Shown one piece after another: positions 1 to 58,841 of a DNA stretch of 64,000 nucleotides. Below the pieces are notes generated by a model. It ran no database searches. It worked only from the letters and a program-made list of their open reading frames with translations, and had not been told where the DNA came from. Numbering within the stretch: the stretch's first letter is position 1; each line of letters starts with the position of its first letter. The position numbers and the translations under genes are program-made. The DNA is from Pleurostoma richardsiae. Lineage: Eukaryota > Ascomycota > Sordariomycetes > Calosphaeriales > Pleurostomataceae. The stretch lies in NCBI GenBank assembly GCA_030052745.1, contig JANBVO010000015.1, forward strand, positions 248,001-312,000, written 5' to 3'.

Positions 1-370
1 GAATGGGCTGCGAAAATGCGACCCAACAAGTCAACCCACTAGCTCGCTAAACCCTGCCGGAAGACACACAAAGGTTGCTTTTAAAAATGCTGTGAAAGTG
101 TGAGGGATTGAATGAAGGCAACTACGCTGCCGCGCAGGCTACGTCACGAGGTAGGTTGACCAATCAAGCAAATCAGTGAATTCTCCACATCAATTGTTCC
201 CCCACCCCCTACAATGGGCGAGAGTGGCCTTAAAAATGCTGTGAAAGGAGTGCGCTCTGGTAGGTACACACATATGAAGATTGAACCAATCAACCAATTC
301 TGTCAATTTTCCACACCGATGGTCGCCCCTCCACAAGGGGCGAGAGTGAGTTTAAAAATGCTGTGAATGA
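1..370. repeat. Left inverted-repeat arm made of three diverged tandem units
   Basis: Three successive units end in near-identical motifs at 79-96, 230-245 and 351-367 (TTTAAAAATGCTGTGAA or close). The whole arm is colinear, in reverse complement, with 15280-15625: the block GCGACCCAACAAG..CTCGCTAAA (16-50) recurs there, as do GACCAATCAAGCAAATCA (157-174) and the block GAAGATTGAACCAATCAACC at about 277. The arm runs off the left edge, so its true outer end is unknown. The minus-strand reading gives a short recurring peptide (FTAFLNSLSPL-like), but no gene can be supported. Confidence 0.85.
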
Positions 371-1190
371 TACCCTGCGGTATTCATGTGTATGGCAGCA
401 TGTGCCCCACTCGCGGACCAACGGGTATACCCCACCGAATTCCGCCTCTCCTTGCTGCTCCAACATCCCGTCATGTACTCTGTACATACATCCCTTCAAG
501 ATCATGACCTTGCAAGTGGTTTGAGGCACTAATTCTCTCACCGACGACTCCTTCGTACACAAATATCCTCAGACCTCACACACTTGGCGTTATGTTCTGG
601 GGCTTCGATTTCTTTCGGCTCCGTAGCGCACTCATTCTTATTGTAAAACCCAATTGCAGCAAGATAACGACGACGAGGGCTACCGAGGACGCGAAGTACC
701 TCTTGCCATCGTCGGAAACGGAAACCTGCCCCGAACCATCGTGGCATCACAATTGAGCTGAGGACTCCTCTACGGGGCTCGGTGACCAATTCGAGTCAGG
801 TTTCGCCCGCCGTATCTAACCTGCAATTCCTTTCCTTGGCTCCAATATTTCCACCATCCCCGCTCCGAAGCGTCGATTTTTTTTTCATCTTCGACAATCC
901 ATAACGCACCGTAAGCTCGTTCTCTGTTGCCTAAGTGGTAGTCGATCTTCGTCTCCCGCCGGTTGCCTAGAGGAGAGAAAGTGTGGCGACAGGAGTGGTT
1001 GATTCCGTGCCGATTGTCGGCTATCAGGATCGTGGTGGTGACGATATCGGTAGCATCTGTATGAGCCTCCGCCGCCTTGGTATTCAGCACTGCTTTGAGC
1101 GATTTTGGACCCGGATGAGCGAGTCGGAGGTCTCCGAGAGCGTTCTAGGGACTGCGCACACTGCCCCGAACCAGGGCAACGGCACGCCTT
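371..1190. other. Intergenic, no gene supported
   Basis: Between the left repeat arm and the 3' end of the permease gene. Short open frames occur on both strands, but none has a recognisable domain, splice pattern or plausible start. A T-rich run lies at 877-886. Confidence 0.6.
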
Positions 1191-2777
1191 TCACCGTTCC
1201 AGCCCATCCCTAGTTAGGTCCACACACTTCAGCGGAACCAGCTTGGTCCGGTACCAGATCTTGTAGCCGACATATAGGGCGACAAAGATCATGAGGCTGA
1301 CGTAGCAGGCAAAGAAGTCACTTGTGCTCCAGTCGATGAACACAGTAAAACCATTTGTGAGCAGGATCAGCACGTTGAAGAAGAGTCCGTACCACGACAG
1401 CCATGGCTGCATGGGCGCCACAAAGGGGAGGCTGCCTCCGTCGCGGCGACCCTGGCGGGGGATGCCCTGCGCGGCGAGGGCCCGCTGGAAGCGGATGTGG
1501 CAGGCGCTGATCATGGCCCAGGTGATGAAGCCGGCGACGGAGGTGATGTTGAGCAGCCAGTTGAAGACCTCGGAACCGCTGGCCGAGAGGTTGATGAAGC
1601 CGATTAGACCTAGCACCGACGACAAGGCGACGGCGACGTACGGCGTGCCATGCCGGTTGGTGCGGGTCAGGATGCCCGGGGCGTGGCCCTCGTTAGCCAG
1701 GGCCACCATGATCCGGCTGCTAGAGTAAAGGTTCGAATTGGCAGCTGAGAGCACGGCAGTCAGTAGGACAGCGTTGATTATATGCGCGAGCACGTCGACG
1801 CCAGCGAGATTCGCAACGATGACGAGGGGCGAGGCCGATGCATCGGTCGAGCCGTTCTGGAGGTTGGGGTTGGTGTAAGGCACGTTGATGCCGACGAAAA
1901 AGACGAGAGCAATGAAGAGCACGGTGATGCCCCAGTACGTCCAGCGGATTGCCGATGGGATTGCCTTCTCCGGGTTCGCCGTCTCTCCGGCGCCGACGCC
2001 CACCAATTCCGCTCCCTGGAAACTGAAGCCCGCCGTGATGAGGACGGCCCAGAAGCCCACAAACTTCCCGGTAGCGCCGTCGACCATATACTCAGCAAAA
2101 GGCCCAGGGGTCACCCAGTAATGGAAGCCGATGTACCCTTGGTCTCCAACCCCGGCGTTGACGCAGATAGCAAAGATAATGAAGCCGACGACGGTGATAA
2201 CCTTGATGCTAGAGAACCACATCTCAAGCTCGCCAAACCAGCGGATGGGGAGAAAGTTGATGGCTGTGAAGATGGCCCAGAAGACGGCAATCCATATGGC
2301 AATGCTGAGATCCTTGTCCCAGTACTGGATAATGAGACCGGCCGCCGTGAGCTCGAGTGCGTAGGTGATGGCCCAATTGAACCAGTAGATCCAGCCGAGG
2401 GCGAAGCCCAGGGCCGGGTCCAGGAAGCGACTGCCGTACACAGTGAAGGAGCCAGCCACGGGGATGTACGAGGCCATCTCGCCGAGGCTGACCATCACAG
2501 AGTAGACGACCGTAGCGATGAAGATGTAGGCGATGAGTAGCGAGACGGGGCCGGACACGGCGAGAGCAGAGCCCGTGCCAAGGAAGAGACCAGTACCGAA
2601 AGTGCCACCAATGGCGATGAATTGCAAGTGGTAACTGTGCATGGCACGGTCAAGGCTGCTGTTGCTCTCGCCGGGCTCGACATCCTCGGTGGCTTGCTTG
2701 GCGGTGCTGCCCTTCTCGCTGCTTGCCCGGGATGTTGTTTTCTCCCCCATTGCCGGTGCTGCTGGTGGAGAGGCCAT
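1191..2777 (-). CDS. Amino-acid permease, YAT family (APC superfamily)
   Basis: Predicted plasma-membrane proton/amino-acid symporter of the fungal YAT group. It is one uninterrupted frame of 528 aa, the usual size for the family, starting at ATG 2777. After a hydrophilic Ser/Thr/Glu-rich N-terminus (residues 1-45) comes the first membrane segment with the family signature IAIGGTFGTGLFLGTG (about 54-69), then SLGEMASYIPVAGSF, the GFSFQGAELVGVGAGE substrate-pathway helix (about 250-265) and about twelve hydrophobic segments in all. The C-terminal tail is short and ends soon after KLVPL. No intron is needed. It lies inside the inverted-repeat-bounded island, same strand as the next transporter. 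Substrate cannot be read from sequence; broad or neutral amino acids or GABA are possible. Confidence 0.93.
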   Translation of the reverse strand: MASPPAAPAMGEKTTSRASSEKGSTAKQATEDVEPGESNSSLDRAMHSYHLQFIAIGGTFGTGLFLGTGSALAVSGPVSLLIAYIFIATVVYSVMVSLGEMASYIPVAGSFTVYGSRFLDPALGFALGWIYWFNWAITYALELTAAGLIIQYWDKDLSIAIWIAVFWAIFTAINFLPIRWFGELEMWFSSIKVITVVGFIIFAICVNAGVGDQGYIGFHYWVTPGPFAEYMVDGATGKFVGFWAVLITAGFSFQGAELVGVGAGETANPEKAIPSAIRWTYWGITVLFIALVFFVGINVPYTNPNLQNGSTDASASPLVIVANLAGVDVLAHIINAVLLTAVLSAANSNLYSSSRIMVALANEGHAPGILTRTNRHGTPYVAVALSSVLGLIGFINLSASGSEVFNWLLNITSVAGFITWAMISACHIRFQRALAAQGIPRQGRRDGGSLPFVAPMQPWLSWYGLFFNVLILLTNGFTVFIDWSTSDFFACYVSLMIFVALYVGYKIWYRTKLVPLKCVDLTRDGLER

Positions 2778-4218
2778 GTTTACTGACGGTCAAAGGTAGA
2801 TTGCGGCTTGGGGGTCACCGACGGGATGGCAAGACCCCTTCGGAAATATCGCGACACAAAGTAGAGAAAGACGCCCAGAGACACAACAAGGAAAAGCAGA
2901 CCCAACCACTACGCCGAGATAGAATAGGGTAGCAAAACAAACAGAGCGAGTAGTATGCGAGAATACGATGAGACAAACGACCTTTCCGAGCGCCGAAAGG
3001 AGCTCCGTTTTCACCTCCGGTCTTATGTAAAAGTTACGTCCAAGATTGAGCTCCAAGTATGCGCCAGAGACTGCGCCAGAGCCTTCAAATACCGAGTTCT
3101 CTCCATGGTCGGCTAGATTCCCGTTGTGAGTCAACGGACTTGATGATTTCCACAGCAATCAGTTTTTCCGTGCCATTTCCTCCCTCGCCGTCGGCTTTTT
3201 CAAGGCAAGCTCAGCCATCATAAGAGAGCCCTGGCAATCAAGAATAACACCACGACCACACGTGTAAGGTCGCGTTGTCTGCAATCATCCAGGCCTGTGT
3301 TTACCACTAGACACCGGCGGACAGAAATTTTTTCACACTAAACTGTGCTCCCGCCCCCTAGATGACGCCACGGCGCCACCCTTAGACAAGCACTAAATTC
3401 GGTGGGCCTTCCGGAGGCAAGGAAGCGCGCTAGAAGGTTTCTAGATTTCTCACAGGAGGAAGATGGCCGATAACTGCGGCTGGTAATGAATATACAACAA
3501 GTCCGTCACCCTCGGTTTAACTCAACTCTTCCCTTTTCTCAGAATGTGATTGTATGCTATTGTCAGCGAGGCTTCTGGTATCAGCGCCTACCGGGCACTT
3601 AATTGACACCAGCTTATTAGAAAGCTAGAGTGGCAGTTTACAAGGACGCCAAAAGAACCATAGAGAAGCAGATTGGACAGGAGGCGGTTAGGCCCCTTGA
3701 CAGCTTTGACAGCCAAAGGCCAAATGACCGCGTGCTTTCCAAGGCTCTAGAGCCACCAATTCAGGGGAATCACTTGAAGTGTAAACAAGCTTTCTGAGAG
3801 ATGCGTCGCTTACAGAATGGTTCCAACCCAGTGTGGATTGGAAAGACATTGGTTGATAGTGTGGTACATCTCAAAAGGGGTTACCGACTAATTGAGTTGT
3901 TGTCCACTCACTAGAGACTGGCTTGAACACTGCCTTTGAGGCTCGGGTATTGTGCTGTCTATTATAGTTCTCAAGACTTGTGGCTTAGTTTGTCTAATAG
4001 TGACGTTCCGAAAGAGTCCATCGTTGAGGATCTGCTTATTTTGCTTCACATCCTCTGCGATCTCTCAATTGAATAATCGTTAAATCATACAACCGATGTA
4101 GGGTATCTAAGATGTCCCAAGGTCACGCTACGCTATGAGTGATTACCTTGATAAAGCTGTCATAACTCAGCGACAAGCAGATTGCTGTGAACTGACTACC
4201 CCGGCTTGATAACGTCCC
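2778..4218. other. Intergenic region upstream of the YAT permease
   Basis: About 1.4 kb holding the promoter of the permease (minus strand) and the 3' flank of the AAAP gene. Reading frames are short and interrupted. AT-rich, with no recognisable coding family, tRNA or repeat. Confidence 0.6.
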
Positions 4219-5746
4219 CTACCCAACAGGGGCGCAGGAAAAGGAGCCGTGAACTGTTCCTTCGTTATACTGGCGAATCTAGAGAATGGTAGGTTAGTCC
4301 CTACTCATATGGTGCGTATCAGCAGTAAATGGAAAAGAACAAGCTTACAATGTCCCAGACACTAGCGTATGTCCCAACCCCCAACACGACAAGCCCAATA
4401 ATGAAGCAGGCTGCGTTGGTCAAGCTTAGACCGAGATTTCTCCGCTCGTACCAGGGGCCCTCCTTGATCAGCATGAACCACATGGCCGCCGGCAGGTAGA
4501 ATGTGAATCCGGACACAAACAGAGAGGAGATGACGCCCAGCAGGTCGGAGAAGAAGGGGATGGCCTCGGCAATGATCCAGGCGACGACGGTGACGACGGC
4601 GATCAGCACGAGCCAGGTAATCCATCCCATAGGCGTGTTGATGTAGCGGATCACGGAGCCCTGGAAAATGCGGCCGTGAATGTAACGTGACACGACTGTG
4701 GTGTTGATGCTACCGGAGATGAAGATGACGGGTAGCGCGAGGCCAAAGGCCACCTTGGAGGGGATCTCACCGGCAGACAGGAGGGCGGGAGACGACACGT
4801 CCTGGCCAACGAAAGCGTAGATGATGGCACCGGTGAGGGTGTAGATGACGATTTCGAAGGTGCCGAGAGCGACGATGCTCTTGGGGAAGTCGGTGGGCGT
4901 GTGCATCTCGTCCATGAAGCTGAACTGGCACATAGCGAAGCTGTACGCGAAGACGATGTCGAGGATTGGGATGAACGCCTCGGCTAGCGAGAGACCCTCC
5001 TGCGGCCATGCAGACCAGTTGACCGCAGACAGGCCGCCTGGGTCCTGGTGCGCCTCGACACCCGTGGCGATCATAGTGAAGACAATCGCGATGAGGATGG
5101 ACGCAAAGTCGATGTAGCCCAGGATGGCCAGGTCGGCGAACGCGGGCGGGATGGCAAGCAGGAAGAGCACGACGGCGGACACGACGCTGAAGACGATAGA
5201 ACAGGCGCCGTTGTTGGTGAGGTTGTCCAGCGCGATCGTCCCTGTCAGCGCGTGCGAGCCCAGCGTGCAGACAAGCTGCAGCACGAACATGGCCCCCACG
5301 AACTCGTAACCGAACCTGCCCATCATGAGGCGGCCGGCATCCGCGTAGTGCGAGACCTCCGGGAACTTGATCTTGACCTGGCCGACGACGTAGCTCGTAT
5401 ACATGGCGATGATGCCTATGCCCACGCAGCAGATGACACCAGCGACCATACCGAGTTTCGCGAAGGCCCCGGGCAGACTGAGACTACCAAGGGCGATGGC
5501 CTCGACGACGAGCACAATGACGAGCCGCTTCCATCCCAGACGGTGGAAGTTGGCGGCTCCTTGGGCGATCTTCTGCTTCTCGATATCCGCGAGGTTGGCC
5601 TCCTCGACCTCCCCACGTGTTGATGCCCGCCTCCAGAGAAAGGCGCCGCCCTGAGTAAATGCCTTATCCTTGAGGATCTCACCTTCCCTCTCACCGGAAA
5701 GCGCGTCCTGGTCGGCGGCCGGTAGTGCTTCGATGGACAAGCCCAT
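4219..5746 (-). CDS. AAAP-family amino-acid transporter (Mtr-like)
   Basis: Predicted neutral/aromatic amino-acid transporter of the AAAP family, resembling the Neurospora Mtr N-system transporter. Two exons: 5746-4349 and 4278-4219, with a 70-nt intron at 4279-4348 (GTAAGC, branch GACTAAC, acceptor CTAG). Reading without splicing gives a false tail (SLFFSIYC); splicing restores the family-like ending IRQYNEGTVHGSFSC and a stop at 4219, about 485 aa. Features: N-terminal cytosolic stretch to residue 65, then 11 hydrophobic segments beginning RLVIVLVVEAIALGSLSLPG, with SHYADAGRLMMG and FMDEMHTPTDFPKS between helices. It and the YAT permease 1.4 kb away give the island two amino-acid carriers, which suggests the island's pathway takes in an amino acid or related acid. 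Specificity is not readable. Confidence 0.92.
4279..4348 (-). other. Intron near the 3' end of the AAAP transporter gene
   Basis: GTAAGC donor, AGGGACTAACC branch region and TTCTCTAG acceptor; phase 0. Included because retaining it changes the last 20 residues. Confidence 0.85.
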
Positions 5747-7825
5747 GATTTCTGCGGATGGAGATGTCGACGGTTATCCTCACAAGGCAGTCTACTGTGG
5801 CATCGGACGGGCGAGTCTCCGTGCTGCTCGACGTGATCCCGAAGAATCACTCGTCAATATAAGAGCCAAGGTCGTGGGGGGAACGTTCTGCGAGAGCGGC
5901 AGAAGGAGAGGGACGAGGTTCGGCGGGTTCCGCCTCCATGACGAAGGTCACGGCGAGGGATAGTTCATAGTCAAGGACATGCTCGGGGCCTGTACGGAGG
6001 TAGATGTGGCGATCGGAGCCGCGAGAGTGGAATCAGTTTGTCATGGTCTCCTGTGCGACCCGCTGTAGGCCCGCTGTTTGGCTCCGGTGGTACCAGCAAG
6101 GTTAGTGGTTGATTCCCCGAGCAGTCAGGGGTCGAACGACCGGCCGCATGGGGCGGTTATGGATCTGCTCTTGTGCGCGTCTGGAATGGACTGACCCTCA
6201 TTCCTTAGTAGGTGCTCTTGCGCGCAGTCGGAGTCACTTTTCTGACCCTGGCGAGGAGAGAATTGAGGACTGCGTTTGGGAGAAATGACAGATCCTACTT
6301 GCTCCACACTATAACTACGGAGGCGAGTCAGTCCCTGTATCGAGTTCGGCTTACGCTCTTGCAAATGCAGCTTAGCCTGACAGCCCTGCCTGGGGAAAAC
6401 TCCACAGGATCTGACTCGCCCCAGCTCTCTGTAACAGAGAGTGTCGGGGATAAGATCATCTGCAGGAACCGGACGAGACTCTTAAAAGGCGCGCGTCCGG
6501 GCTTCCCGGGAGCACTTGTGGTGCGCCGATCCGGGAATAAGCCTTCTGTCATTGGACCCTACGGTGATCTTTACACTACGACAAGAGGTAACAATGACCT
6601 AATAGCCGGCCGAGTCATCCCTTTTCAGTTCCGTATTCGGTGTTTAGTGCCAGCATGTCCACGTGTTGAAGTTGCAAAAGCTTTCATATCCTGACATCAG
6701 CTCAACTTGATCAGGAGCACAGGAGCCCAGGGGTTGCAGAGAGCCATCCAATCCTCGCTGGGAAGCCTCTCGACGCCCGCTTCTCACTGACGCTTGACGC
6801 AATTTTGTCGATTCTACTCCATGCATGCTAATAGCAGAACAAGAGCTTTGACTCGGTCTTAATACACCGTGCTGGCTGTCACTTCGACGCCTAACTACCC
6901 CGTCGGCCTCTGCCAACTCCCCGAAACCCTAAGCTAAAATAGATCCCGGGCCTAATGCCGGCATCCCACCCCAAGGACGTCATCATGACTCCAGCCCAGG
7001 CTGCCCTTTCAACGTCGTTGTAGACTCTAGTCGATGCCACGAAGAATCCGCGCTCTCTACGCAGCTATCTTTTCCCGGAACTTCTCTAAGCTTCTGGAAA
7101 CGCTCTTTGAACCGTGTCTGGTGCGCGCAGCGCGTCACTTTCCTTTCAATGTTACGAGGCGATGCGTGCTTGGAGAGTAAGATATGTTGTCTCCCGTCGC
7201 TTCCCGCTGTCCGGATTATGCTCTGGGCGACGCCGAAGATGGCACTCTAAACCTAGGCCAAACCCTAGCTCCATTCAGAAGGAATTATCACTGTGGCAGG
7301 GAGCAGCGCGAGCCAGCACTTTCACTTGCTCGGCCATCGACGCTGAAAATAGGATGATCGAAGACAGGTCATGAAATGGTTAACACGCAGCCGCTGGAGC
7401 TTTTGGGGCCGTCAGCGTCCGCTCCGAGAGCCGCCTAAACGTAAGTCTCCCGTATGCTCGGCTTGTGTTCCGCATGAAGTTACTCTATACTTCCATTATG
7501 CCACGTCTCCCGCTGCACATAACTTGGGGGATCAGGACTATTCTCATCAAGGTCACAGCGCCATAGCCTTTTTAATAGAGAGATGGTGGGCCTGATCTTT
7601 TGTGCCAAGCAACAGTCATTTGTGGTCGACCTAGCCTTTAATCAATGGTCGCATAGTCGGCACGCCATTTAAGCCCTTCGGATCTACGCTTATGAATTGA
7701 TGGGAACGTCTTTCAGCGTGTATCATTATGCTCCCCAAGACACCATAAACAACATAGAACAAAATCCCATTGCATATATTTCTCATGTTAGTCACTTGGG
7801 TTGTGTTCTCGATTGCGTTGTGGTG
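5747..7825. other. Intergenic, no gene supported
   Basis: About 2.1 kb between the AAAP promoter side and the 3' end of the regulator gene. Several 60-160-codon frames occur on both strands (the longest at 6212-6694) but they overlap each other, lack domains and show no consistent exon structure. A short hairpin (CTCTCTGTAACAGAGAG) lies near 6424. It could be decayed sequence or regulatory DNA. Confidence 0.55.
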
Positions 7826-10030
7826 CTAATTGAGGTCTGTAAGATCGAGATCTGCCGCCCAATCGAAATCGGGCAAAGGCTCGAGAAACGAGAACACGTC
7901 CTCGTTGGACTGCTGCGCCTTGAATGCATCTGCAGGAGCCTGTTGCTGGGAGGCTTGCTGGGGATATCCGTGTTCTTCCAGCGCAGAATCAGTGCCAGGT
8001 ATTCCTGCTACCGCCAGGGTCAATATAGGTGTCGTCACATCCGCACATTGCATCTGCACTTACCTGCAGTCTGATTCTCAGTAGAGGGGTCCCTGTAAGG
8101 GTTTGCCTGTCCTGCGAACTCCTCCTTCCACCACCAAAAACAGTCGAAGACGATGCTCATGGATAGTCTGCTGCGAATGCGAGTCCCGAGACTTTGCACT
8201 TTGCCAGTGGCTCGCCGAAAGATGCTCTTGCTATTCCAAACCTGGCTCAGAATAGTGGCGGACCGCGCGCCGAGGTCATCGCTCAGCAGAGAGCCGCGGC
8301 GGCAAATCAGGATCGCGTCGAAGTATGCCTTCTCTCCAGCATCCTTGTTCACGTGCTCTGAGAGTGGACTGCGTATGATTTTCAGGATGCAGAACGCCGA
8401 TAGGACCACCGTCCGTTCGAGGAATGCAGGACAGGTCTCGATAATTTCGCTTCTCCGATCCTCGGTGATGAGTTCCTCCAAGAAGGAGCAGGCAGCTGAG
8501 TATATAAACATCATCGCGGGAAGATTAGAGCTTCCAGGATTCTCAAAGAAGTGAAAGGCAAGGAGGTGTACCCGACAACTCCATACATATACCGCAGCTT
8601 AGGGCAGCATCAGTATGCAGTCAGCAGGCAAAGCGTCGCGGGCAACTCACTAGTCCCAGTACCGCACCTTCCCAGGATCTCTACAAGCTGAGAATCAAAC
8701 AGGTTAATCAACGACGTTAGTAAGTCCCGCTGGGAGCTGTAACGGGCCTCTTCTACTGCCTTGGGGATAGCCACCGCAGACGATACCATGATTCGGTGCA
8801 GACTGATCATATCTCTGAGCTCCGCTGGAAACTCTGAAAGCAGTTTATCGCTGCCTGGTCCGCTTAGCTCGGCGTTCGCCACGAGCATAGGCGGTATGCC
8901 ATCTCGGAGGCTCGTCCTATTGCACGACTGTTAGTCTCTACGGAGTTGGCCATGTGGATGCATCAGCCCTAACTCATGGAAAACCATAACGCAGCGGACC
9001 CAAAGCTGGGCCCTCACTACGACTTGCTCATGCCTTGCCTGTATCAACTCCCGAGCAAAGTCTTGTCCCGGACCGAGGACGTGGAGGCCGATCTGCATGG
9101 CAAGCTGGATTGCCGCGCCACTGAGAACGCTGCTGATGTCCTTGTACATGGTATTGATGGGTACTGGCCAGACACAGAGGATCAACAGGGCCTGTATCTT
9201 CTGGACTGGGTTTGATCGGCTCTCGAGCGACAGCAGGGCCATCGAGTAGATGCGAGGTGCGAGCCTGACGAGCAGCGTTGGGTCTCGATCATAGCGCCGG
9301 CTTCCGACGAGCACAATAGTCCAGAAGAGAAATGGGGATAAGCGGAGACATTCATCCGCATTGAGATCTCGATCAATAATGGGGAATATAGGCCAGTACT
9401 GCCGGAAGAACCTTTTGGAGACCACGTTAGTTGCGACCGTTCATTCATCATCCAGTTCGGCGACGTGATCTCCATACGTTGTGAAGCAATCCCGGATCTT
9501 GCGCCCGTCAACATCTTGCCCATCCAGGCACTCAATCTTCTCTGCAGCCGAAGGAGACGTCGCGGAGTCGTTGGGGATCGATGGCGAGATGCGGAAGCCG
9601 TCGGATGTCCGTCCGGCCTGACCCAGTGGAAGCTCGGTGCCGACGTCGGCAATGATCTCAGTCGCAGCGACAGGCGCAGATGCAGCCACCTGGGTGTCGG
9701 GAAGATGCACAACGCTGTGCGCGACGTGGTCTTGCTTCTCCAAACTCGCATGCATCAATGCTTGGCCCTTGAGCTGCTCAAGCTCTCTCCAAAGCTGCGT
9801 CTTGGTCTGACGAGCGTGGGGATTGGGCGTAGTAGCGCAGGTGAGGCCGAGCCGGCGGCAGCGAGAACAGACCCGCGGCGGCTCAGCGTCGCAGCGAACC
9901 TGGCAAACCGCTTCAGCCTCCTGAACGCGCCAGCAGCAGCGCTGGCACTGCCCAAATGATGGAGATGTCAATCTTATACCTTCTGCTGCCTACATTCTTT
10001 GCAGGCTACTCTTCTTCGTTCCGGTGCCAT
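7826..10030 (-). CDS. Zn2Cys6 transcription factor with fungal-specific MHR domain
   Basis: Predicted nuclear regulator of 630 aa, six exons: 10030-9980, 9899-9478, 9411-8974, 8916-8651, 8597-8064 and 8007-7826. The start is chosen because a 51-nt first exon encodes MAPERRRVACKECRQQK; splicing at GTATAA to the acceptor at 9900 joins it to VRCDAEPPRVCSRC, restoring a canonical CX2CX6CX7CX2CX6C cluster, which unspliced reading destroys. A basic/coiled linker (QLWRELEQLK) follows. Fungal-TF homology region: FFRQYWPIFPIID (exon 2/3 join) and LWVRCVMVFHETSLRDGIPPML (split over exons 3/4). The acidic tail ends in EPLPDFDWAADLDLTDLN, a plausible activation region. All introns are 53-80 nt with good branch sites. 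It lies next to the hydro-lyase gene and is the natural candidate for its regulator (inference). Confidence 0.9.
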
Positions 10031-10401
10031 TACGGCTTGCGTGTCGATTTAAGAGTAAGCAGGAAGAGAAGCAGTCCAAGGTTGGAGAAGTGTGGAGTAG
10101 TTGGGCCTTACACTCATGTAGGCAGAACCCACATGCAATGGTAGACAGCTCGGGATCTAGCTTTGAGGCGCCCAATGGTGTCCTGGAGAAAATTGATTAC
10201 GGCGTGATACACTCCTTGTAGGGCAAAGGACACCACACCCACTCTTGAACATGACTCCCAGATACTACTGCCATTATGTTGGCGTAAAAAGCGGTAATTT
10301 GTTTCATCATCGAAGCATCGTTTCTTGCGACCGTAATACCTACGGACTGGCTACCTTCTCTAAATCTGTTTATCCCCCTGCGCTGCTGCTCCTGTGCTGG
10401 G
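10031..10401. other. Short intergenic promoter of the Zn2Cys6 gene
   Basis: About 370 bp separating the regulator's start from the hydro-lyase stop; both genes are on the minus strand. No coding signal. Confidence 0.6.
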
Positions 10402-13332
10402 TTACCAGTCGAACCCCTCGGAGGATGATGCGCAATCGGCCGTCTCATCGGCGCGCTTGTGCTTCGTTGCGGTACCGCTAGAGCAGAGCTCCTCAAATAG
10501 CTGCTTTCCAAACTTCATAAAGGCGGGCGTGATGCCCCCAAGCTCGATGAGCTCCTTTTCCATGCCACTCAGCTGGAATGGAAACTTGCAGCCACCAACT
10601 TCCGCGACATTCTTTCCAAGGTCGATGGATATCTCAATTCCATCTCGAGCTGCCTCGTAGAATGCCTCGTCCGTGATGGTAATACCCAAGAGGCCAAGAC
10701 TGGGTTGGTTTCGACTGTAGATGAACGCAAAGGACTTGGCAATTACACACTTGACGCCGATTCCTGTGAGCCAGATTAGCCGTCACTGCATTGGAGTCAT
10801 CCAGGGGGTCTCAAGTCAACAACTGACCGATCAGTGCATTCACGGCTTGCTCCCGGGAAGAACCGCACCCGAAGGCCTTCCCACCGACGACAATGTTGAA
10901 CCCGTTTTTGACACGGTCCCTGAACTCGGGCATCGTGAACTCCATGCAGTGTGCTCCCAATTCCTCGTTAGTGCCACATTCGACCAAGAACTGTGCAGGA
11001 GCCAGCTACATCTGATCAGCGCATGCTTCTTGAACAGCTGACGGACTAGGAGATTCATAAGCTCACAGCGTCTGTGTCGATAAAGTCTCCGAGTCTCTGA
11101 ACTTTGCCCAAGATCATCTTAGAGGACATGCCTTGTGTTGGGTGGCCTAGGCCCCTAGCGGTGGCATCGGCTTCCACGCCAACATCTTGGTCCAGGGCAA
11201 CTGCGGGTTTCTGGGGGCTGAACGGCTCTACATAACGTGGTTCTTCGCCATGGTGAGGTTGCAACGAACCGCGACCCTTGACACTCTCCCATCTGGCGGG
11301 ATCAATCTGGGCAATAAGATCGCACGGATCCCGGATCTTCAGGTCGAAAGACGAGGCAGCGACCGTCGCGGCAGATGCGAGGTTTCCAATCGCACCTTTT
11401 ATCATTGTCAGCAACATCCGTCAGTCAAGGAGTAAGGATTTTGATTTCTCACCCTGGCCCATTCTGTTCTCGAAGTTTCTGTTCTGAGACGAGAGCCAGA
11501 CCTCGCCAGGTTCAGCCCTATCCACCGACATGCCGACGCAGTAGCTACACCCCGGGACACCAACTTCGAAACCGGCTTGCTCGTACATCTCTGCAAGCCC
11601 AGACTTTCGGAGGCGATCCAGAATGGGGCGAGATCCCGGAACAACTTTACGTTTCCCCTTCTTGGTAGGGGTCATTCCGTTCTTGAGGCCTTGCTCCAAG
11701 ACGAGTGCGGCCAACACAATATCCTCCTCGGCCGTCGTGCAGGCTCCGATGAAGCAGCCATTCAATTCTGTGCCAGTCACCTCATCCACCGGGACGACAT
11801 CGTCCGGGTTTGGGTACTTGGCAACGAAAGAGTGGGCTTTGCACAAATCGATGGTGTAAGTCTCGGCATACACCGCATCTTCATCTGGACGGAAGTAGTT
11901 GGAGTCATTCTTATGCCGAGCCACCTTCCTCGAATTGATGAAGGTGCTAGTCACGGCGTCCGGAACGAAAATACCGGTGATGCCGCCAAATTCCTATGAC
12001 CTCCCAATAAGCCACGACGTCGAGTGCGGGATCTTGGCAGCTCTCCTCACCGTAGTCATGTTTGCGATCGCGAATCGAGCGTCGGGGGACAGATACTGCA
12101 GTCCCGGTCCGGTGTACTCAACAACTCTGTCAGACGCAACCGTATTTCTCTTCAGCTGCTGCAAGATGTAGAGGATCACGTCTTTCCCTCCGATACCATT
12201 TCCAGGCTTTCCGACAAGTCGGATATTGACACACTCGGGCACTTTGAGCCAGATCTCGCCAATGACTAAACCCATGGTCACATCAGCAGCGCCGAGGCCT
12301 ATGGATAGGCAACCGACAGCGCCAGAGGAGCATGTGTGGGAGTCAGATCCAATGACGAGCATCCCTGGCTGCGCTCGCTCGCGGTAGAACTCCGTATGCA
12401 TGATGGTATACTATTGCAGGTGTCAGCCGACACAGTTACCCAGAAGCGACCCAGAAGCCACTAGAAATGGACCAGCTGACGTTCATGCCCTGGTACTCGG
12501 TCATTTTGAAGACCTTCTTCGCCCGCTCTGAGGACTCGATGAGCTTGCGGATTGCAGGATGGTTAGCGGCCCTTGGATCTACGACGTGATCCCCGGCAAG
12601 CCAGAATCTGTCGTTGCGGAAGATACCTGGTTCACCGAGCTGATTATACGTCCTTTCCATGCCCTGTGCAGCGAGTATGGTCAGAATTGTGGATGCACGG
12701 AAACCACAGAGTACTAACACTCCAGGATGCTTCAGACGCCATGATCCAGTCGACGTACACACGGATTGTGTCTCCTACGCAGACTTCGCCTGTCGGCTCG
12801 ACATTGTGCATCGCAAAGATCTTCTCCGCAAGGGTCATAGGGCGCCGCTCTGGTGGTTTAAAGGCTGCTGGCACCGGGGACTGGTTGGATCTGTCCGAGG
12901 AGTTGAGGGCCTCGAGCGCTGTGTTTATCAGCGTTATTCGCGTCACCTGGCCGTGGATACTAACATGCTGAAATTAGGAATCCAATCTCTGTGATGTTCT
13001 CTTCAGTAAGATTTCCGTCGTCCGTAAGCCCGAGCCCGCCATAGTTCACTGGCGTCTTGCAGATGTTGGTGACATGCACAAGCGTGTCCGCTTCTTTGCT
13101 ATGATTGCGGGACCTAAGATGCCAGGCCGCCTCACGGATTGCCTCGAAGGCATTTGGATGTTTCTTGACTGGGTACGAGTCAGTAGTCGTAGGCTCCCTG
13201 CGTATCAGAATGCCACTAACACAGCGCTGTTAACTCTTGGCCAACGTCGATACCTCTGGTTTCTTTCAATGAGGAGGTAATACAACCGCAGAGGCCGCCA
13301 TATGATCCTTCACGAACGTTAATTGAAGTCAT
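10402..13332 (-). CDS. Fused aconitase / 3-isopropylmalate-dehydratase-type hydro-lyase
   Basis: Predicted [4Fe-4S] hydro-lyase that moves a hydroxyl on a malate/citrate-like acid. Well-supported exons: 13332-13221, 13168-?, about 12967-12719, 12663-12481, 12410-12051, 11993-11453, 11395-11067, 11005-10828 and 10763-10402. LeuC-like half: [47 protein letters not shown] (first cluster Cys), [23 protein letters not shown] (second Cys; a Thr stands where Asn is usual), PGCSYCVGM (third Cys). LeuD-like swivel half: [18 protein letters not shown], then [10 protein letters not shown]. Both halves are in one chain, as in fungal Leu1/Lys4/aconitase. An N-terminal extension of about 100 aa is not typical, and the exon 2/3 junction (12968-13049) is uncertain. 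It is divergent from the lyase gene at 13760. Substrate unknown; candidates are dimethylmalate, methylcitrate or alkylcitrate derivatives. Confidence 0.86.
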
Positions 13333-13759
13333 TGCTGAAGGATGCTGTGAAGCTTCCGAAGGGAGTCGGGGTGAAATGCAGTCCAAGGAGGTGGTGAGCA
13401 GGATGAAGTATTTTAAGCCAGTCGAGGACCACGCATGGTGACTTTTTGTATCGGCGGCCCACCAATCAACGGTCAGATATTACGCAAATTGGCCTGCAAT
13501 GGCGCTGCTGGAGGTGTTCGAAATCACCCAGAGTCGACGACGGGCGCGGTCGTGGTGGACCTTGCCGAACCTCGCCGACCGGTCCGGCCAGCTTCGGCAG
13601 GCTGAGCGGCGATACAGCAGTTCGTCGAAGTCAGGCTTTACGGTTCCCCGGTAGCTCATACGACTTGTAGCATGTCTTCATGGCAAAATCACTTCCTTAT
13701 ATAACAAGGTGGTTTTCTTCTCTGCTTGGCATATGACCCGTCACCAACAACTAGACATA
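13333..13759. promoter_or_regulatory. Shared divergent promoter between hydro-lyase and C-C lyase genes
   Basis: About 430 bp between the two divergent start codons (minus 13332, plus 13760 or 13733). No coding signal. CGG-containing stretches such as 13559-13590 could bind a Zn2Cys6 factor, but no site can be assigned. Confidence 0.6.
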
Positions 13760-14824
13760 ATGGCCGAGAGCAACGAAATAACTACTCCAGTATCAGCAGC
13801 TGCCAAGCTGCGCAATTTGTTGGCTAGAAAGGACAAAATCCTCGTATGTCCTGGAGTTTATGATGGAATCACAGCAAGGATAGCCCTCAAAGCAGGCTTC
13901 GAGTGTCTTTACATGGTATAGCCCGCCTCTTTTCAATCCTATATCCTCCTTCTCTGACACTGTCTTAGACTGGAGCCGGCACCACAGCGTCTCGACTTGG
14001 TATGCCCGACTTGGGCGTCATTACTTTGAACGACATGCGAGACACAGCAGGCATGCTTGCATCTCTCGATCCAACCGTGCCCGTCATCGCCGACGCGGAC
14101 ACGGGCTATGGAGGTTGGTTGCAACATTTTCTCTGCCTCAACAACCATCTCCTCCACCCAAATGATAAATAGAGTGCACTCACTAAACCAGATAGGGCCT
14201 ATCATGGTTGGTCGTACCGTCACATCGTATATGCGCGCCGGCGTTGCCGGTTTGCATCTGGAAGACCAGGTGGTGACGAAGCGTTGCGGCCACCTGATGC
14301 ACAAGCAACTGGTACCTGAGAACGAGTTCCTGTCGCGCATCCACGCCGCTGTGCTGGCCCGGTCGAGCGTCCCCGCCGGCGACATCGTCATCATCGCGCG
14401 CACCGATGCCCTACAGTCGTTTGGCTACGAGATCGCCTGCGACCGGCTGAAGAAGGCAATCGCGCTAGGTGCCGACGTCGCGTTCCTCGAGGGCGTACGC
14501 TCTGTTGAGGAAGCAAGGCGTATCTGCGAGGATCTTGCGCCCACACCGGTGCTGTACAACTGCGTCGCGGGCGGCGAGTCCCCCGTATGGACGGCGGCCG
14601 AAGCGCGGGACCTCGGATACAAGATCGTGATCCACCCTGCCTTCGCGCTCGCACCAGTGTTTAGCGCGGTCACGGATGCGGCAAAGGCTCTGAAGGGGAC
14701 GGGTGCAATGAGCGAGGCAGAGAAGCTCACATCGCCTAAGGCGATGTTTGAGGTGTGCGGGTTGAATGAGGCGGTTGCATTTGACATCGCCGCTGGGGGC
14801 AAGCTCTTCTCTGAGGGAGTCTAG
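13760..14824 (+). CDS. Isocitrate-lyase / PEP-mutase superfamily C-C lyase
   Basis: Predicted Mg-dependent lyase of the 2-methylisocitrate / 2,3-dimethylmalate lyase / oxaloacetase group, which splits a substituted malate-like acid into pyruvate or a 2-oxoacid and a second acid. Three exons: 13760-13915, 13969-14113, 14196-14824; introns 53 and 82 nt. The last acceptor is GATAG at 14195, which rejoins DTGYG with GPIMVGRTV; 309 aa. Seen: KILVCPGVYDGITARIA near the N-terminus, GAGTTASRLGMPD, the Mg-binding ADADTGYG, GLHLEDQ, the catalytic Cys loop TKRCGHL, and IIARTDAL. An in-frame ATG at 13733 would add nine residues. The intact Cys loop argues for lyase activity rather than phosphonomutase. 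Being divergent from the hydro-lyase suggests successive steps: hydro-lyase makes the hydroxy-acid isomer, lyase cleaves it (inference). Confidence 0.9.
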
Positions 14825-15194
14825 TCCCTCGCGACATCGTAGATTTCGACGGGATTGGCCCTTCCCATGTTGGAGTGGCATGCGACAGATGGGTGCTAGA
14901 GACAACTCAGTTGTTCCTGTAAGGACCTTAGGCTCCTTGCATAATAAATGGAGAATCATAAGCTATAGGAACGGCAGGCTCAGACGTATGCAGACCTCTT
15001 CAGCTGTCGTCTTGAGGACTCGAGCCGGAGCAAGAGGAGACTTTCTACTGTGTAACCAAATCGTACAGGACCATGTGGACGGGATGCTACTTAGTCGGAG
15101 CCAGTGTGCTAAGCGCCGCTGCCAGCCGTGAACAGGGAATGTTGAGCTTAAGCGATGCTACCCGTTGGTTAGCGAGTGGGGGCGCATGCAGTTT
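14825..15194. other. Intergenic between C-C lyase and right repeat arm
   Basis: 3' flank of the lyase gene; no gene recognised. Confidence 0.55.
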
Positions 15195-15625
15195 ATGCGA
15201 GCAGCTTTCACAGCATTTTTAAAGTTATCCTCGCCTTCCACGGAAGGGGTTCACTGGTGTGAGGAATTGACTGTGCGCCTTAAGTTTTCATTCACAGCAT
15301 TTTCAAAACACACTCGCCCATTGAAGAGGAGGGTCTATTGGTGTAGATAATTGATAGAATCAGTTAATTAGTTTAATCTTCAAATGGTGTATCTGCTATG
15401 ACATAGTATTGCGTTCACAGTATTTTTTGGCCCACTCTTGTCCATTGTTGGGGAGGACATCGATGTTGGGGATTTGTTGATTTGCTTGATTGGTTCAATC
15501 TACCTCGTTTTGGATTTGCATACGATGCAGTATTGCACAGCATTTTTAAACGCAGCCTGGGTCGTCTGGCAGGATTTAGCGAGCTGATTGGTTGGCTTGT
15601 TGGGTCGCATTTTTGCGGCCCTTAA
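15195..15625. repeat. Right inverted-repeat arm made of four diverged tandem units
   Basis: Reverse-complement counterpart of bases 1-370. Motifs of the TTCACAGCATTTTTAAA type occur at 15207-15223, 15291-15308, 15414-15428 and 15535-15551. Unit order mirrors the left arm: 15540-15625 matches 1-90, 15415-15520 matches about 150-250 and 15280-15380 matches about 270-367. The innermost unit (15195-15275) has no partner on the left. Open frames here are repeat-derived. Confidence 0.85.
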
Positions 15626-16740
15626 GTTTTCCCGGCGATGCGAGGACACTTCAAGGTTAATGCCTAGTGCAGCTCTAACTATGTCCTTCCGGTAACCGAA
15701 ATGAAGACGCCGCATAGTGTCTTCGCTTTCAAGAATGAAGGCGCTCCTAAACTTTTGGCTAGGCCTAGTCGGGCATTGCCTGTGGCGTCGTGAGGCTCTC
15801 CCTGAGTTTCAGACCTGGTCTAATTAACGTTTTGGGCCTCGCTTCGCTTAGCCAGAGTGTCGTGGAGCCTGGCCCCGGTCGGGGCTACCCAGCTTAATTC
15901 CAGGCAGGGCAAGCTTCTGTAGCGTTTCAGGCTGGAGTCACAGCGACTAATCGGATCATCCGTGATCTCCTGTGACGCCAAAGATTTGCCTGCGTGAACC
16001 ATGCAAGTTGTGCTGGCTCTTCAACACTGAGCGACAGCTCCCGGGTGGAGATCACGGAGATCATTCGAGAGTCGGCGGTCGTTTGCTAAATCAGATGGAT
16101 CTTGGCCACGAAATGCAGAGCTTGTCGTCTACTCATCACAGATGAGCGCCTTGGTTTCCTCCGCCGCGACCCTGGCGGCTCGATGGTCTCGAACGGGTCG
16201 CAGAATACTTTGCTCCAATGCAGGTGCGTGTCAGAACCAGGCCGGACAATGACATGACCCACCAACCAGGGGTGCTCATCCCGGCTAGGTGGTAGGGCGA
16301 CACGGCTACGCAACTCCTTCGTCGCATATCCGAGCAGCTAAGATTCACGTCAGGGAGGAAGACGATCCGCATTCCTGTCGGACTGTGCCGACCCCGGTCA
16401 AGATCTGGACCCCCTCGCTTGATCTCGAAGTTGGGACGGAAGACCCCGGCGCGATGCAACAGCGTATGTACATCGGACACAACGGCCGGCCGAGTACATA
16501 AAGGCGGCTCTGGTACCGTCTCATCTCCATCCTCTCCTCTCCTCACGCCAACGGCTACCTTCTCTTTCATTCAGTCACTCTCTGTCTCAAGGTTCTGTGA
16601 ACCGTTTCTTTCTTTCGCTCTTTGAGTCTCGATTTGTTTGCCAACTCACTGGCTGGGCCTTTCTCTCCCTTCAATTCTTAAACATATTTGCGGTTCTCTC
16701 CCGCTCTATACATATCTTGATCCTCACCCCCGTCATCACG
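15626..16740. other. Intergenic and 5' leader of the secreted-protein gene
   Basis: About 1.1 kb outside the island. No gene is supported in 15626-16500. The last 230 bases (16510-16740) are pyrimidine-rich, as in many fungal 5' UTR/promoters, and precede the ATG at 16741. Confidence 0.6.
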
Positions 16741-20308: not shown

Positions 20309-20310
20309 TG

Positions 20311-20395
20311 TGGATGAGCCCGGGATCGAACCGGGGACATTCCGCAAGTCACGAATTCATGCGAAGCGGACGCCATACCACTAGACCACACACCC
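20311..20395 (-). tRNA. tRNA-Ala (anticodon CGC) with 13-nt intron
   Basis: Minus-strand cloverleaf. Acceptor stem GGGTGTG pairs with CTCATCC, including the G3:U70 wobble that marks alanine tRNAs and one T-T mismatch. D-arm GTC..GGC with TAGTGGTAT loop; anticodon stem TCCGC/GCGGA; T-arm CCCGG-TTCGATC-CCGGG; discriminator A. The anticodon loop reads TTCGCAT once an intron of 13 nt (GAATTCGTGACTT or a one-base shift) after the loop is removed, giving anticodon CGC. An internal B box (GGTTCGATCCC) is present. Confidence 0.92.
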
Positions 20396-21121: not shown

Positions 21122-22573
21122 TCACCTAGAATCTTTGGCCATGCCTCGACGCGGATAATCAAGCCAAGTATCCCACTCTGGGCCGAGATAGTCGCTAATA
21201 ATGCGTAATATGTACGCCCCTGCATCCCCAATTGGCCACAGATGCCGCCCGTAGTGCAGCAACAGGGCATAGTACGCCAGCAAGACCAAGGCCTCGGGCC
21301 GTTTGGCTGCCATCAGGGCAGTGAACTCTGGAGGCACCAGCATCGTCCACGAGACAAGCATATGATGTCGGTTGTAGCCCTCCTTGTCTTCCTCCTCGTC
21401 CCCCAATGCAGCGTCGAACCCGACCTGCAGGTATTTGATCGCCTGCCGGCACGCCTCCTTGTCCTCCTCGGTCATCCCGCTAGCCGTCTCCACTAGCTGC
21501 TTGATCCGCCAGCAGTGGGTCCCCTTCGGCGTCCGCGAGGTGAACCCAGAGCTCCAGGCCAGGATGGGTCTGAGCCACGACTCCATGAGCAGCGGCCAGG
21601 CGGTGAGAGCGATGGTATGAATGCCCCTGTGCAGCTCGACACACTGCACATAGTGGGTCATGAAGGCTTCCAGGCCGCCGGAGTCCCGCTTGGCGAGCGT
21701 GTCGGCGAGGAGGTGGTGTCCCAGAATCGTGGAGAAGAGGAGCACAGCAACGCAGTTGGACTGGTCGACCTCAGTCCAGTGGGCGTTGAAGAGCGAGACG
21801 GCGCGAGTCTGAAGGGTGACGGCTTGGTGGAGGAAGGAGGCGGACCGCTCGGGGTGCAGGAAGGCCAGGTGGCGCGCGGAGAAGGCGAGCAGCTGGTGCA
21901 GGAGATACGGTGCCTCCAAGCCGGTCTTCAGACCGAGGGACATGCCAGATTCGTAATAGCCCTCGATGCGGGCACCAAGGTTGAATAGGTCCCCGTCGAC
22001 GGCCAGATGGATGACGAGTTCCATGTGGTTGAGGTTGACGGCCGCGTCAAGTGTCGGGTCTTGGTCATGGCCTTGCTGGTGGTCTATGGCACTCAGATGT
22101 CCTGGCGAATCAAGATTGGAGGGGGAGGCCGCATATAGAGGGTTAGCATGGGGCACAGTGATATCACCCTGGCTGTTGGTGTCGCCAGGGCTTATGGACC
22201 CCTCACGTGGGGATGTACCGGATGACGGCAGGTTCTCCGAGAGCTGTTGTGATGCGTAGCTGCAGTCTCGCTCAGATAGCCTACAGAGGACGCATATCGG
22301 GCGGCCCTCATCGCACTGGCAGTCCGGAAGAGCTCGAGGTTAGTGACGACACTTAGTACACAACCAGAGAGCATTACCTTGACGTGCCGCCGCTTGCTAT
22401 TCAACCAAAGTCAGCCCAGCATGATGATAAGGGGGGCAATGATGCGGGACATGCGGAGCAGGTGGGAGGCAGGGATAATAAGCGCAAAGCGTCGAAGGGG
22501 GCGTTCCAGCCACTTCCGCGACTCACCATTGCACGCAACCCCCCCGTGACTTCTTGTGGCTGCGGCGGAGCAT
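21122..22573 (-). CDS. UPC2-like Zn2Cys6 transcription factor with a 19-nt microexon
   Basis: Predicted regulator of 419 aa in the sterol-uptake-control (Upc2/Ecm22-like) group. Exons: 22573-22527, 22396-22378 (19 nt) and 22315-21122; introns of 130 and 62 nt with GTGAGT/AATAG and GTAATG/GCCAG borders. Joined, exon 1 gives MLRRSHKKSRGGCVQC, the microexon KRRHVK and exon 3 CDEGRPICVLCRLSERDC, a perfect CX2CX6CX6CX2CX6C cluster with the basic lead-in typical of the group. The effector domain includes DGDLFNLGARIEGYYESG and ends YLGPEWDTWLDYPRR, like the family. The reading frame from 22156 alone lacks the DNA-binding domain. It stands at the edge of the oxidoreductase/transporter block and could regulate it or the divergent RTA1-like gene (inference). 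Confidence 0.9.
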
Positions 22574-56214: not shown

Positions 56215-58841
56215 ATGCGTGGACTGCATCTTGGCTTGGGCGCCCTCGCCCTCGGCACTGCCAACGCCTGGACGTATCCGGAATGCGTACGGTTGAAACA
56301 TCTCTTGGCACTGTACAGGGGTATCGCATCGAAAAGTGCTAACCGCTTTGATAGGAGCAAGATAACTGCTACCGGGAGTTGACTGACCAGCGCTTCACTG
56401 CCGAAGCCGCCAGCTTCTGCCCACAGTTCCTTGCTGGCACCACCACTGCCGCGTCGGCCATCCCGACTGATTTCAGTAACTGTGGCGGCAGCGTCGAGAA
56501 AGTCAGCTCGGCATGCTCTTGTATCACGTACTCCCTGACCCACTCGGAGTCGACCTCCACGGTGCCCCTGACTACCTCCTCGAGCATCTGGGGAACTACC
56601 TCCACGAGCTCCCAGGTGGTGACAACCTCTACTTCGGTTGCCGTCACCACATCCTCTAGCTCAACCTCTACTACTCCCACCTCGACTTCTACCACCCCCA
56701 TTCCGTGGAGCAGCACCAGCAGCTCGTCTAGCTTGACTTCATCGTCCAGCTCGAGCTCTGTTGTCAGCTCCACCAGCTCGACCTCATGCGAGGAGACAAC
56801 GTCAACCTCATCAACCTCGGTCCCCGTCACAGTCTCCAGCTCGACCAGCTCAACCATTGTCACCAGTTCGAGCAGCTCCACGTCGTGCGAAGAGACAACG
56901 TCCACTTCGGTTCCCGTCACGATTCCTACGTCGACCAGCTCAACCGTTGTGACCAACTCGAGCACCTCCACCAGTTGTGAGGAGACCACTACTTCGGTCC
57001 CTGTCACGGTTTCCTCTTCCAGCAGCACCAAGGCGTCGACCACCACCACTGGACTTAACAGTACCACCGTGTCCGTCTCTACGACCACCTCGGTGCCGGT
57101 CTCGACTTCGACTTCCAGCTGTGAAGAGTCCTCGAGCACTGTCAGCGTGTCGACTTCGGCGAGCCTCAGCTCGGTGACCTCCACCCCTACTTATAAGCCG
57201 ACGTCTTCTAGCTACTGGACGACGTCCACAATCTGGACCACGACGGTCAAGACCATTACGTCGTGTGCCCCGACTGTCACGTCCTGCCCAGCCCGTTCCG
57301 GTACGCCCTACGTCACCACCGAGACTGTGCCGCTGACCACTACCGTCTGCCCGGTCACTGAGACGGAGACGGCCACGACCACAACCGCACCGGCCACCAC
57401 GGAGTACACCACCTCAACTGTCTACAGTACCACCGTCCGCACTATCACCTCTTGCTCCCCAGGTGTCGTCTCCTGCCCTGCACACTCGGCCACTACCAAG
57501 ACGGTGACTGAGACCATCGCCGTGTCCACCACCGTGTGCCCTGTCACAGAGACTACAACTTCTCTCACGCCTACCACAACCCCCAAGACCGAGGAGACCA
57601 CCTCAGTCACCCCTACCCCGACGACTACCTCTGAGACGGAGTATACCACCTCGACCGTCTACAGCACCACCGTTCGCACGGTCACTTCCTGTGCACCGGG
57701 CGTCGTCTCCTGCCCTGCGCACTCGGCCACTACGAAAACGGTGACTGAGACTATCGCTGTATCCACCACGGTTTGCCCCGTCACAGAAACTACAACTTCT
57801 CTTACTCCTACGACGACCCCCAAGACCGAGAAAACTACCTCGATCACGCCTACCCTGACAACTACTTCTGAGACTGAATACACCACTTCAACCGTTTATA
57901 GCACCACCGTTCGCACGGTTACTTCCTGCGCACCGGGCGTTGTCTCCTGCCCTGCGCACTCCGCGACAACCAAGGTCGTCACTGAGACTGTCGCTGTCTC
58001 TACCACCGTCTGCCCGGTGACCGAGACCACGACACCAGCTGTCACCATTACCCAGACTAGCACATCGGCTCCTTATGTTAACGCCACCACGACTTCCGCT
58101 CCTTTTGTCAACTCCACTACCACCGTGACGCCCACGACGGAGTACACGACCTCAACCGTCTACAGCACCACCGTCCGTACCGTGACGTCCTGCGCCCCGG
58201 GTGTCGTCTCTTGCCCGGCACACTCTGCCACTACCAAGGTCGTGACAGAAACCGTTCCTGTTTCCACCACCGTCTGCCCCGTGACCGAGGTCACGACGTC
58301 TACTGTGCCTGTTAGCAAGACCAAGACGTTGACTCTGACCTCCAAGGCCAAGTACACGACCTCGACCGTCTACAGCACTACCCTCCGCACCGTCACCTCC
58401 TGTGCTGCCGGCGTCGTATCTTGCCCCGCACACTCGGCCACGACCCAGATCGTCACGGAGACCGTCCCCGTCTCCACCACTGTGTGCCCTGTCACCGAGA
58501 CCACTACCCCCACCGAGTCCACGAAGGCTGTTCCTACCACGACCATCGTCCCTGGCTCAACAGAGGAGTGGACCACCATCTCCACTGTCCCGGCCGTCAG
58601 CAGCAGCAGCACCACCGTCATTTCGGTCCCGCTCGAGAGCGAGGTCGTTTCCAGCGCGGCTGCCACCACCCCCAGCCCTGTCGCTGTCACCTCTAGCTCC
58701 ACCACGACTACGCCCGCTGCGGTCGTTTCCTCCTCCAGCACGACCACCAGCCCCGCCGCGGTGGTTACTGCCGGCGCCGGCCGCGTTGGTGCCGGGTGGG
58801 TTGGTGCCGCTGCCGGTGTTCTCGTCGCTGCTCTTCTTTAA
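56215..58841 (+). CDS. GPI-type Ser/Thr-rich cell-wall protein with six tandem repeats
   Basis: Two exons: 56215-56286 (signal peptide MRGLHLGLGALALGTANAW) and 56355-58841; intron of 68 nt; 852 aa. The N-terminal Cys-containing domain (QDNCYRELTDQRF, FCPQFLAGTTT, SACSCITYSLTHSES) is followed by a Ser/Thr stalk with recurring SCEETTS blocks (about residues 130-290), then six copies of a repeat of about 50 residues (TTSTVYSTTVRTVTSC, VVSCPAHSATTK, VSTTVCPVTETTT), then a Ser/Thr/Pro region and a C-terminal omega-site plus hydrophobic tail (TAGAGRVGAGWVGAAAGVL) typical of GPI anchoring. Each repeat keeps three Cys. It is probably heavily O-mannosylated and displayed on the wall; adhesion is plausible but unproven. 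Confidence 0.92.
57210..58506 (+). repeat. In-frame coding tandem repeats of the wall protein
   Basis: Copies begin near 57210 (degenerate), 57402, 57639, 57876, 58140 and 58350. Copies two to four are spaced exactly 237 bp and are the most alike in DNA; linkers between the others vary (264 and 210 bp). Lengths are multiples of three, so the frame is kept. Confidence 0.9.

Follow-up and report, generated by a model that had tools for sequence, protein, structure and literature searches.

Inverted repeat arms around a five-gene set in Pleurostoma richardsiae, tentatively read as separate insertions of a short element

Five genes in the window, by which we mean the whole 64,000-nucleotide stretch analysed here (contig C44, 248001–312000), are bracketed by two inverted, internally repetitive arms, and we see an even chance that each of these arms goes back to its own insertion of a short, low-copy, non-autonomous element, with the bracketing of the gene set being coincidental. 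The first-pass annotation had offered two readings, a mobilised metabolic island and two old repeats whose position around the block is fortuitous. The latter is better supported, owing to a direct repeat at the right arm and a partial copy on contig C66. By comparison, the island retains its shape, in the form of long inverted arms with internal repetition, a lack of further full copies in the searches and apparently intact genes, but loses its flanks, at which there is no outer duplication, an 11-bp repeat belonging to the right arm itself and, elsewhere, a partial solo copy. The assembly searched comprises 39.4 Mb in 136 contigs, and its HET, fungal transcription factor and DUF3435 matches indicate the gene content of a filamentous ascomycete. 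Since window base 1 coincides with the left edge that had been proposed for the block, 20 kb further to the left was added to the analysis.

Architecture of the two arms

The left arm spans positions 5–427 on the plus strand (423 bp) and is composed of a terminal unit (5–96), two units at 97–245 and 246–367, and an inner tail (368–427). The right arm is inverted and spans positions 15159–15621 on the minus strand (463 bp), with a terminal unit (15534–15621), further units at 15414–15533, 15291–15413 and 15207–15290, and an inner tail (15159–15206). From the outside to the inside, both arms run through a distinct terminal unit, units of ~122 bp and a common tail, and each ~122-bp unit is closed by the conserved 17-bp motif TTTAAAAATGCTGTGAA or a near copy of it. 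Local alignment of the two arms in opposite orientation yields 296 identical positions in 368 ungapped columns, with a score of 314 as compared with a best score of 54 among 500 random window stretches, and blastn returns E values of 1.7e-38 within 84 kb and of 2.4e-38 and 2.7e-38 genome-wide. The only other repeat pairs within the 84 kb around the window are those of a repetitive gene at 56.7–58.5 kb and one 58-bp pair, which lies inside a gene at 16.6–18.4 kb, and a background control of 60 kb from contig C60 contains no repeat pair at E 1e-3.

This alignment and the pairing of units confirm the earlier description of diverged units lying in opposite orientation and in equal order from the outside in. 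The best left-arm partner of each of the right units R1–R3 is the same-numbered left unit and each inner tail finds its best match in the other; as the one exception in the reverse direction, L2 is closer to the adjacent L3 (score 98) than to R2 (91). The unit series is shared in its order but not in its number, as the right arm carries four motif units and the left arm three, and the extra right unit (R4) has its best left-side score with L1. Similarly, the arms are present as had been described, but their actual outer ends lie at 5 and 15621 and their inner reach at 427 and 15159.

A profile built from the seven units recovers exactly these seven units over 144 kb. Sites within two mismatches of AAAAATGCTGTGAA occur eight times in the window (seven in the arms and one at 13338), compared with 0.33 expected. 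The motif columns have a mean pairwise identity of 0.89, as compared with 0.56 in the other well-filled columns of the units, a difference reached in none of 20,000 permutations. The outer end of each arm forms an imperfect palindrome, which is notable for the right arm, with as good a fold in 1 of 200 shuffles, but not for the left, with 14 of 200. As a signature this palindrome was rejected, its one-mismatch pattern being as frequent as the reversed control and occurring at four places, of which three are not in the block. Within an arm, one end is not an inverted copy of the other, as 416 and 35 of 500 shuffles equal the match.

Repeat-induced point mutation (RIP) is unsupported as a source of the arm divergence, as the TA/AT ratios of the arms (0.65 and 0.61–0.62) are background-like. 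From left to right there are 28 C-to-T differences, 12 of which are in CpA (43%, with CpA making up 35% of C sites), and from right to left there are 15, of which seven are in CpA, so that the right arm is the richer in changes towards A/T.

Flanking repeats and copies elsewhere in the genome

A transposon of 15.6 kb would leave a duplication common to the two outer flanks, whereas separate insertions would leave a duplication around each arm. No target-site duplication common to the outer flanks was seen (P 0.84–1 over the tests). A simple scan found merely a 2-base match at shifted positions, the local, anchored and ungapped comparisons gave P values of 0.88, 0.94 and 0.84, respectively, the one-indel test returned nothing, and the maximum of 6 in the free-boundary test is ordinary. 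The reading as one mobile island therefore receives no support from the flanks.

The right arm, by comparison, is bracketed by a direct repeat of its own, with an 11-bp inner copy, TTAAGCGATGC, at 15148–15158 (plus strand) and an outer copy at 15622–15641 (plus strand). The 11 bases are exact save for one 9-base insertion in the outer copy, and 9 of 100,000 random pairs equal this match. With the boundaries freed by 10 bases, 6 of 1500 random grids are as good, and the peak falls at, or one base off, the ends set earlier by the similarity between the arms. The other tests of this repeat gave P values of 0.028 (unanchored local) and 0.0013 (anchored gapped). At the left arm, the inner flank (428–440, plus strand) matches, in 8 of 13 bases, the 13 bases ending at window base 4, nine of which lie to the left of the window. 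This match has a P value of 0.023 without gaps and of 0.040 in the anchored gapped test, with a one-indel P of 0.064, an unanchored local P of 0.60 and an ordinary free-boundary result. For a pattern that was spotted before being tested, we regard these data as fair evidence of a flanking repeat belonging to the right arm and as weak evidence of one belonging to the left arm. A separate short insertion leaves such a direct repeat of its own, so the 11-bp repeat of the right arm speaks against the island.

Whole-genome DNA searches with either arm found no full copy beyond the two arms, and the 26-base terminal pattern, with up to three mismatches allowed, matches nothing except the two arm ends. 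With at most one mismatch, the 17-mer occurs at six places genome-wide, every one of them inside the arms; two or three mismatches add 53 sites, making 59 in total as compared with 41 for the reversed control pattern. All of these 53 near-motif sites (14 + 39) were compared with the arms with the motif masked and against shuffles. One site on contig C66 scored 39, its best shuffle reaching 24, and another, L088, scored 28 with shuffles at 27; none of the remaining 51 of 53 exceeded its shuffles. The C66 site (21655–21726) is a third copy, partial and isolated, in which the terminal unit only is present. It is 72% identical to the left arm over 83 columns and 75% identical to the right arm over 73 columns, the latter match having an E value of 1.0e-7 in 30 kb, and neither other units nor an inverted partner were found in C66:10001–40000. 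Unit-profile scores over 24 loci include 14.8 bits for the C66 copy and 12.8 bits for a site on contig C55 (about 290688), and the profile has no match in the 39 further near-motif stretches. The C55 site does not stand out after motif masking.

As the C66 copy escaped the whole-arm DNA searches, more diverged copies may exist. The repeat is, at the sensitivity used, neither widely scattered nor confined to this block. The wide scatter of single copies that the first-pass annotation had named as an argument against its island was not found, and there is one partial further copy. This isolated partial copy points to a dispersed element.

Such an element would begin with the distinct terminal unit and continue with two or three tandem ~122-bp units, each closed by the 17-bp motif, and the motifs, by analogy with subterminal transposase-binding repeats, would probably be docking sites for a protein that moves the element in trans. 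The two arms would be old insertions of this one element that face opposite ways and flank an ordinary gene set, each insertion having been made through a staggered cut of about 11–13 bp that leaves a direct repeat at the copy's own ends. Afterwards, the number of units would have shifted and the copies would have diverged by about 20%; the genes between the arms would be cargo of neither copy. In class, the element may stand near the non-TIR Mutator-like elements or be another non-autonomous element; a duplication of ~11 bp without terminal inverted repeats would presumably suit a non-TIR Mutator-like derivative. Against separate insertions, the two flanking repeats are unequal in length (11 and 13), and independent insertion leaves unexplained both the 15-kb spacing and the exact bracketing of the gene set by the only full copies found in 39 Mb. 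The non-significant tests at the left arm, arm ends that do not form an inverted pair and the lack of a mobilising enzyme among the loci compared also count against it.

Genes between the arms and candidate mobilising enzymes

The interior agrees with the earlier description of two amino-acid transporters, a regulator and a hydro-lyase/lyase pair with no recognisable transposase. An amino-acid permease (1194–2777, minus strand, PF00324) and a transmembrane amino-acid transporter of the Aa_trans family (4322–5746, minus strand, PF01490) are each encoded in a single open frame. A fungal regulator (7829–9989, minus strand) lies in several pieces, its extent being set by eye from open frames, with a Fungal_trans domain (PF04082) at 8934–9425. 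Its zinc cluster (9444–9989) scores 17.2 bits, under the Pfam cut-off of 21, and may be atypical, spliced or damaged. An aconitase-family protein (10405–12973, minus strand, extent by eye) is likewise in several pieces, with PF00330 found twice and Aconitase_C barely below the cut-off, and its closest solved structures are homoaconitase and the large subunits of isopropylmalate and citramalate isomerases. The fifth gene (13655–14824, plus strand, several pieces) encodes a lyase of the isocitrate-lyase/PEP-mutase superfamily, nearest to oxaloacetate acetylhydrolase (3lye, 2.8e-56) and 2,3-dimethylmalate lyase (3fa3, 1.4e-55). In the alignment, the lyase has a proline, as in 3fa3, at the position of a serine in 3lye, which we take to mark oxaloacetate hydrolases. 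Judged from these sequence similarities, the gene set would likely hydrate an unsaturated dicarboxylic acid and then cleave an alkylmalate. As their exon joins were judged by eye, the three spliced genes are intact only in appearance.

A foreign composition of the block was rejected, GC3 being 0.64–0.81 in six block exons as compared with 0.58–0.79 in eleven window stretches elsewhere. In a scan for a hidden transposase that covered part of the interior ORFs, the 10 stretches compared, seven of which are anonymous ORFs, gave zero transposase-family matches, and by DNA search two interior stretches poor in genes are single-copy.

Candidate autonomous partners were compared with the arms across the genome, covering all six hAT matches, the single MULE and the single DDE_Tnp_4 match, and two loci of the 34 captain pieces. 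The best score to the arms was 33, with single shuffles reaching up to 36 and the DDE_Tnp_4 locus at shuffle level, and among the transposase loci compared no mobilising enzyme for the arms was identified. The six hAT loci (contigs C115, C36, C108, C104 and C135) have a GC content of 0.18–0.29, TA/AT is high in most of them and four contain stops, and this AT-rich, stop-bearing state is as expected after RIP. A Starship was rejected, as none of the 34 DUF3435 captain match pieces (33 over the cut-off) falls in the window. Captain pieces do occur on contig C44 at 24–1360 on the minus strand, at the very end of the contig and about 247 kb from the window, and several other captain matches also lie at contig ends.

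Other identities of the arms were also rejected. The A/B boxes and the similarity to tRNA-Arg expected of a tRNA-derived SINE are at chance level, and Rfam matches, as for a structured RNA, are far below gathering scores. An exact 18-base match in a viral collection is taken as chance, the scores to the arms being 36 and 38 compared with 27 and 33 for one shuffle each.

Known systems and alternative readings

Several described elements share features with this arrangement. In ToxhAT/ToxTA, according to PMC6737239 and PMC12506042, ~14 kb of fungal genes lie in a non-autonomous arrangement between inverted repeats (74-bp TIRs, about 92% alike, in three species); the first study saw no target-site duplications, and inversion and movement with TA duplications were observed. 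The block studied here is alike in having fungal genes between inverted repeats with no outer duplication seen, but its arms are long, made of tandem units, 80% alike and found in one genome, with a flanking repeat at one arm. The Galileo/Foldback elements of Drosophila, as described in PMC3688188, have long, internally repetitive inverted ends with repeated transposase-binding sites, the first ~70 bp in, and Galileo is multi-copy with a P-type transposase. Our arms are likewise long, internally repetitive inverted ends, but they represent two full copies, and a binding role for their motif is conjectural. MULEs with tandem TIRs, according to PMC3310237, are mostly non-autonomous plant elements with tandem terminal units of variable number, and they illustrate a way in which tandem ends can originate. 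The arms share the tandem terminal units, whereas those elements belong to known TIR families of plants and the sole MULE-type locus of this genome is unlike the arms. Starships are fungal cargo elements (PMC12506042); this genome has DUF3435 captains, but the window is without any. For Kat1, a yeast hAT enzyme, subterminal repeats are reported to matter. We claim no membership of the arms in the ToxTA, Galileo, Kat1 or MULE groups.

These likenesses bear on an alternative that we consider unlikely, namely that a single old, decayed, non-autonomous 15.6-kb transposon with a five-gene cargo has the arms as its long terminal inverted repeats and was mobilised by a transposase that would have acted in trans and, as in Galileo, docked at the repeated motif of both arms. 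Consistent with it are the inverted and colinear arrangement of the arms, their sharp outer ends and the apparently intact gene set between them, as well as the location at this block of both full copies found in the genome, and the first motif lies 71 and 75 bases from the outer end in the two arms, near the ~70 bp given for the first site in Galileo. This cargo reading keeps its place because ToxhAT/ToxTA looks alike and was likewise first described without target-site duplications. It is opposed by outer flanks lacking a common duplication next to a right arm that has its own, by the partial solo copy on C66, and by a block in which no transposase was recognised, the transposase loci compared being unlike the arms. 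We correspondingly find it improbable that a 15.6-kb non-autonomous Foldback-like vehicle moved a complete catabolic unit outside the Starship world. Were the arms to delimit a single element, fungi would have in it a compact means of moving whole metabolic gene sets. By comparison, on the better supported reading of two solo insertions, a small repeat present twice can pass for the termini of a cargo transposon, and a test for flanking duplications copy by copy can separate both readings using one genome.

Quite unlikely, in our view, is a derivation of one arm from the other by local inverted duplication, through template switch or repair, in which insertion chemistry and a role of the genes would both be absent. 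The two full copies are close together with no others found, and the alignable stretch is short and non-coding, as such an event could produce; the flanking direct repeat that brackets the right arm argues against it, as do the tandem units, the conserved motif and the third partial copy, which resemble a mobile family. A role of the arms as functional boundaries or as regulatory elements for the gene set is very unlikely. Although the motif is better conserved among the units than their remainder and each arm is located past the 3′ end of the outermost gene on its side, the sole interior motif match (13338) has two mismatches, leaving the gene promoters without the motif. In the comparison of one arm with the other, colinear motif copies have 5 mismatches in 51 positions and the remaining columns 67 in 317, which is no clear difference in conservation (P 0.06).

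The surroundings of the block carry further features. The left flank (L004, 934–5887 and about 6500–9850) contains a HET-domain gene, a NACHT-like (NPHP3_N) gene and an SNF2/RING-helicase-like gene, the last of which ends shortly before the left arm. Insertion of the left arm inside this helicase-like neighbour was rejected, the C-terminal motifs of the gene, judged by eye, being complete to the left of the arm. To the right of the block, a tRNA-Arg gene (anticodon tcg) at window positions 20310–20395 is the sole tRNA gene detected in the window, and a long Ser/Thr-rich open frame at 56379–58841 contains tandem repeats of 90 and 237 bp.
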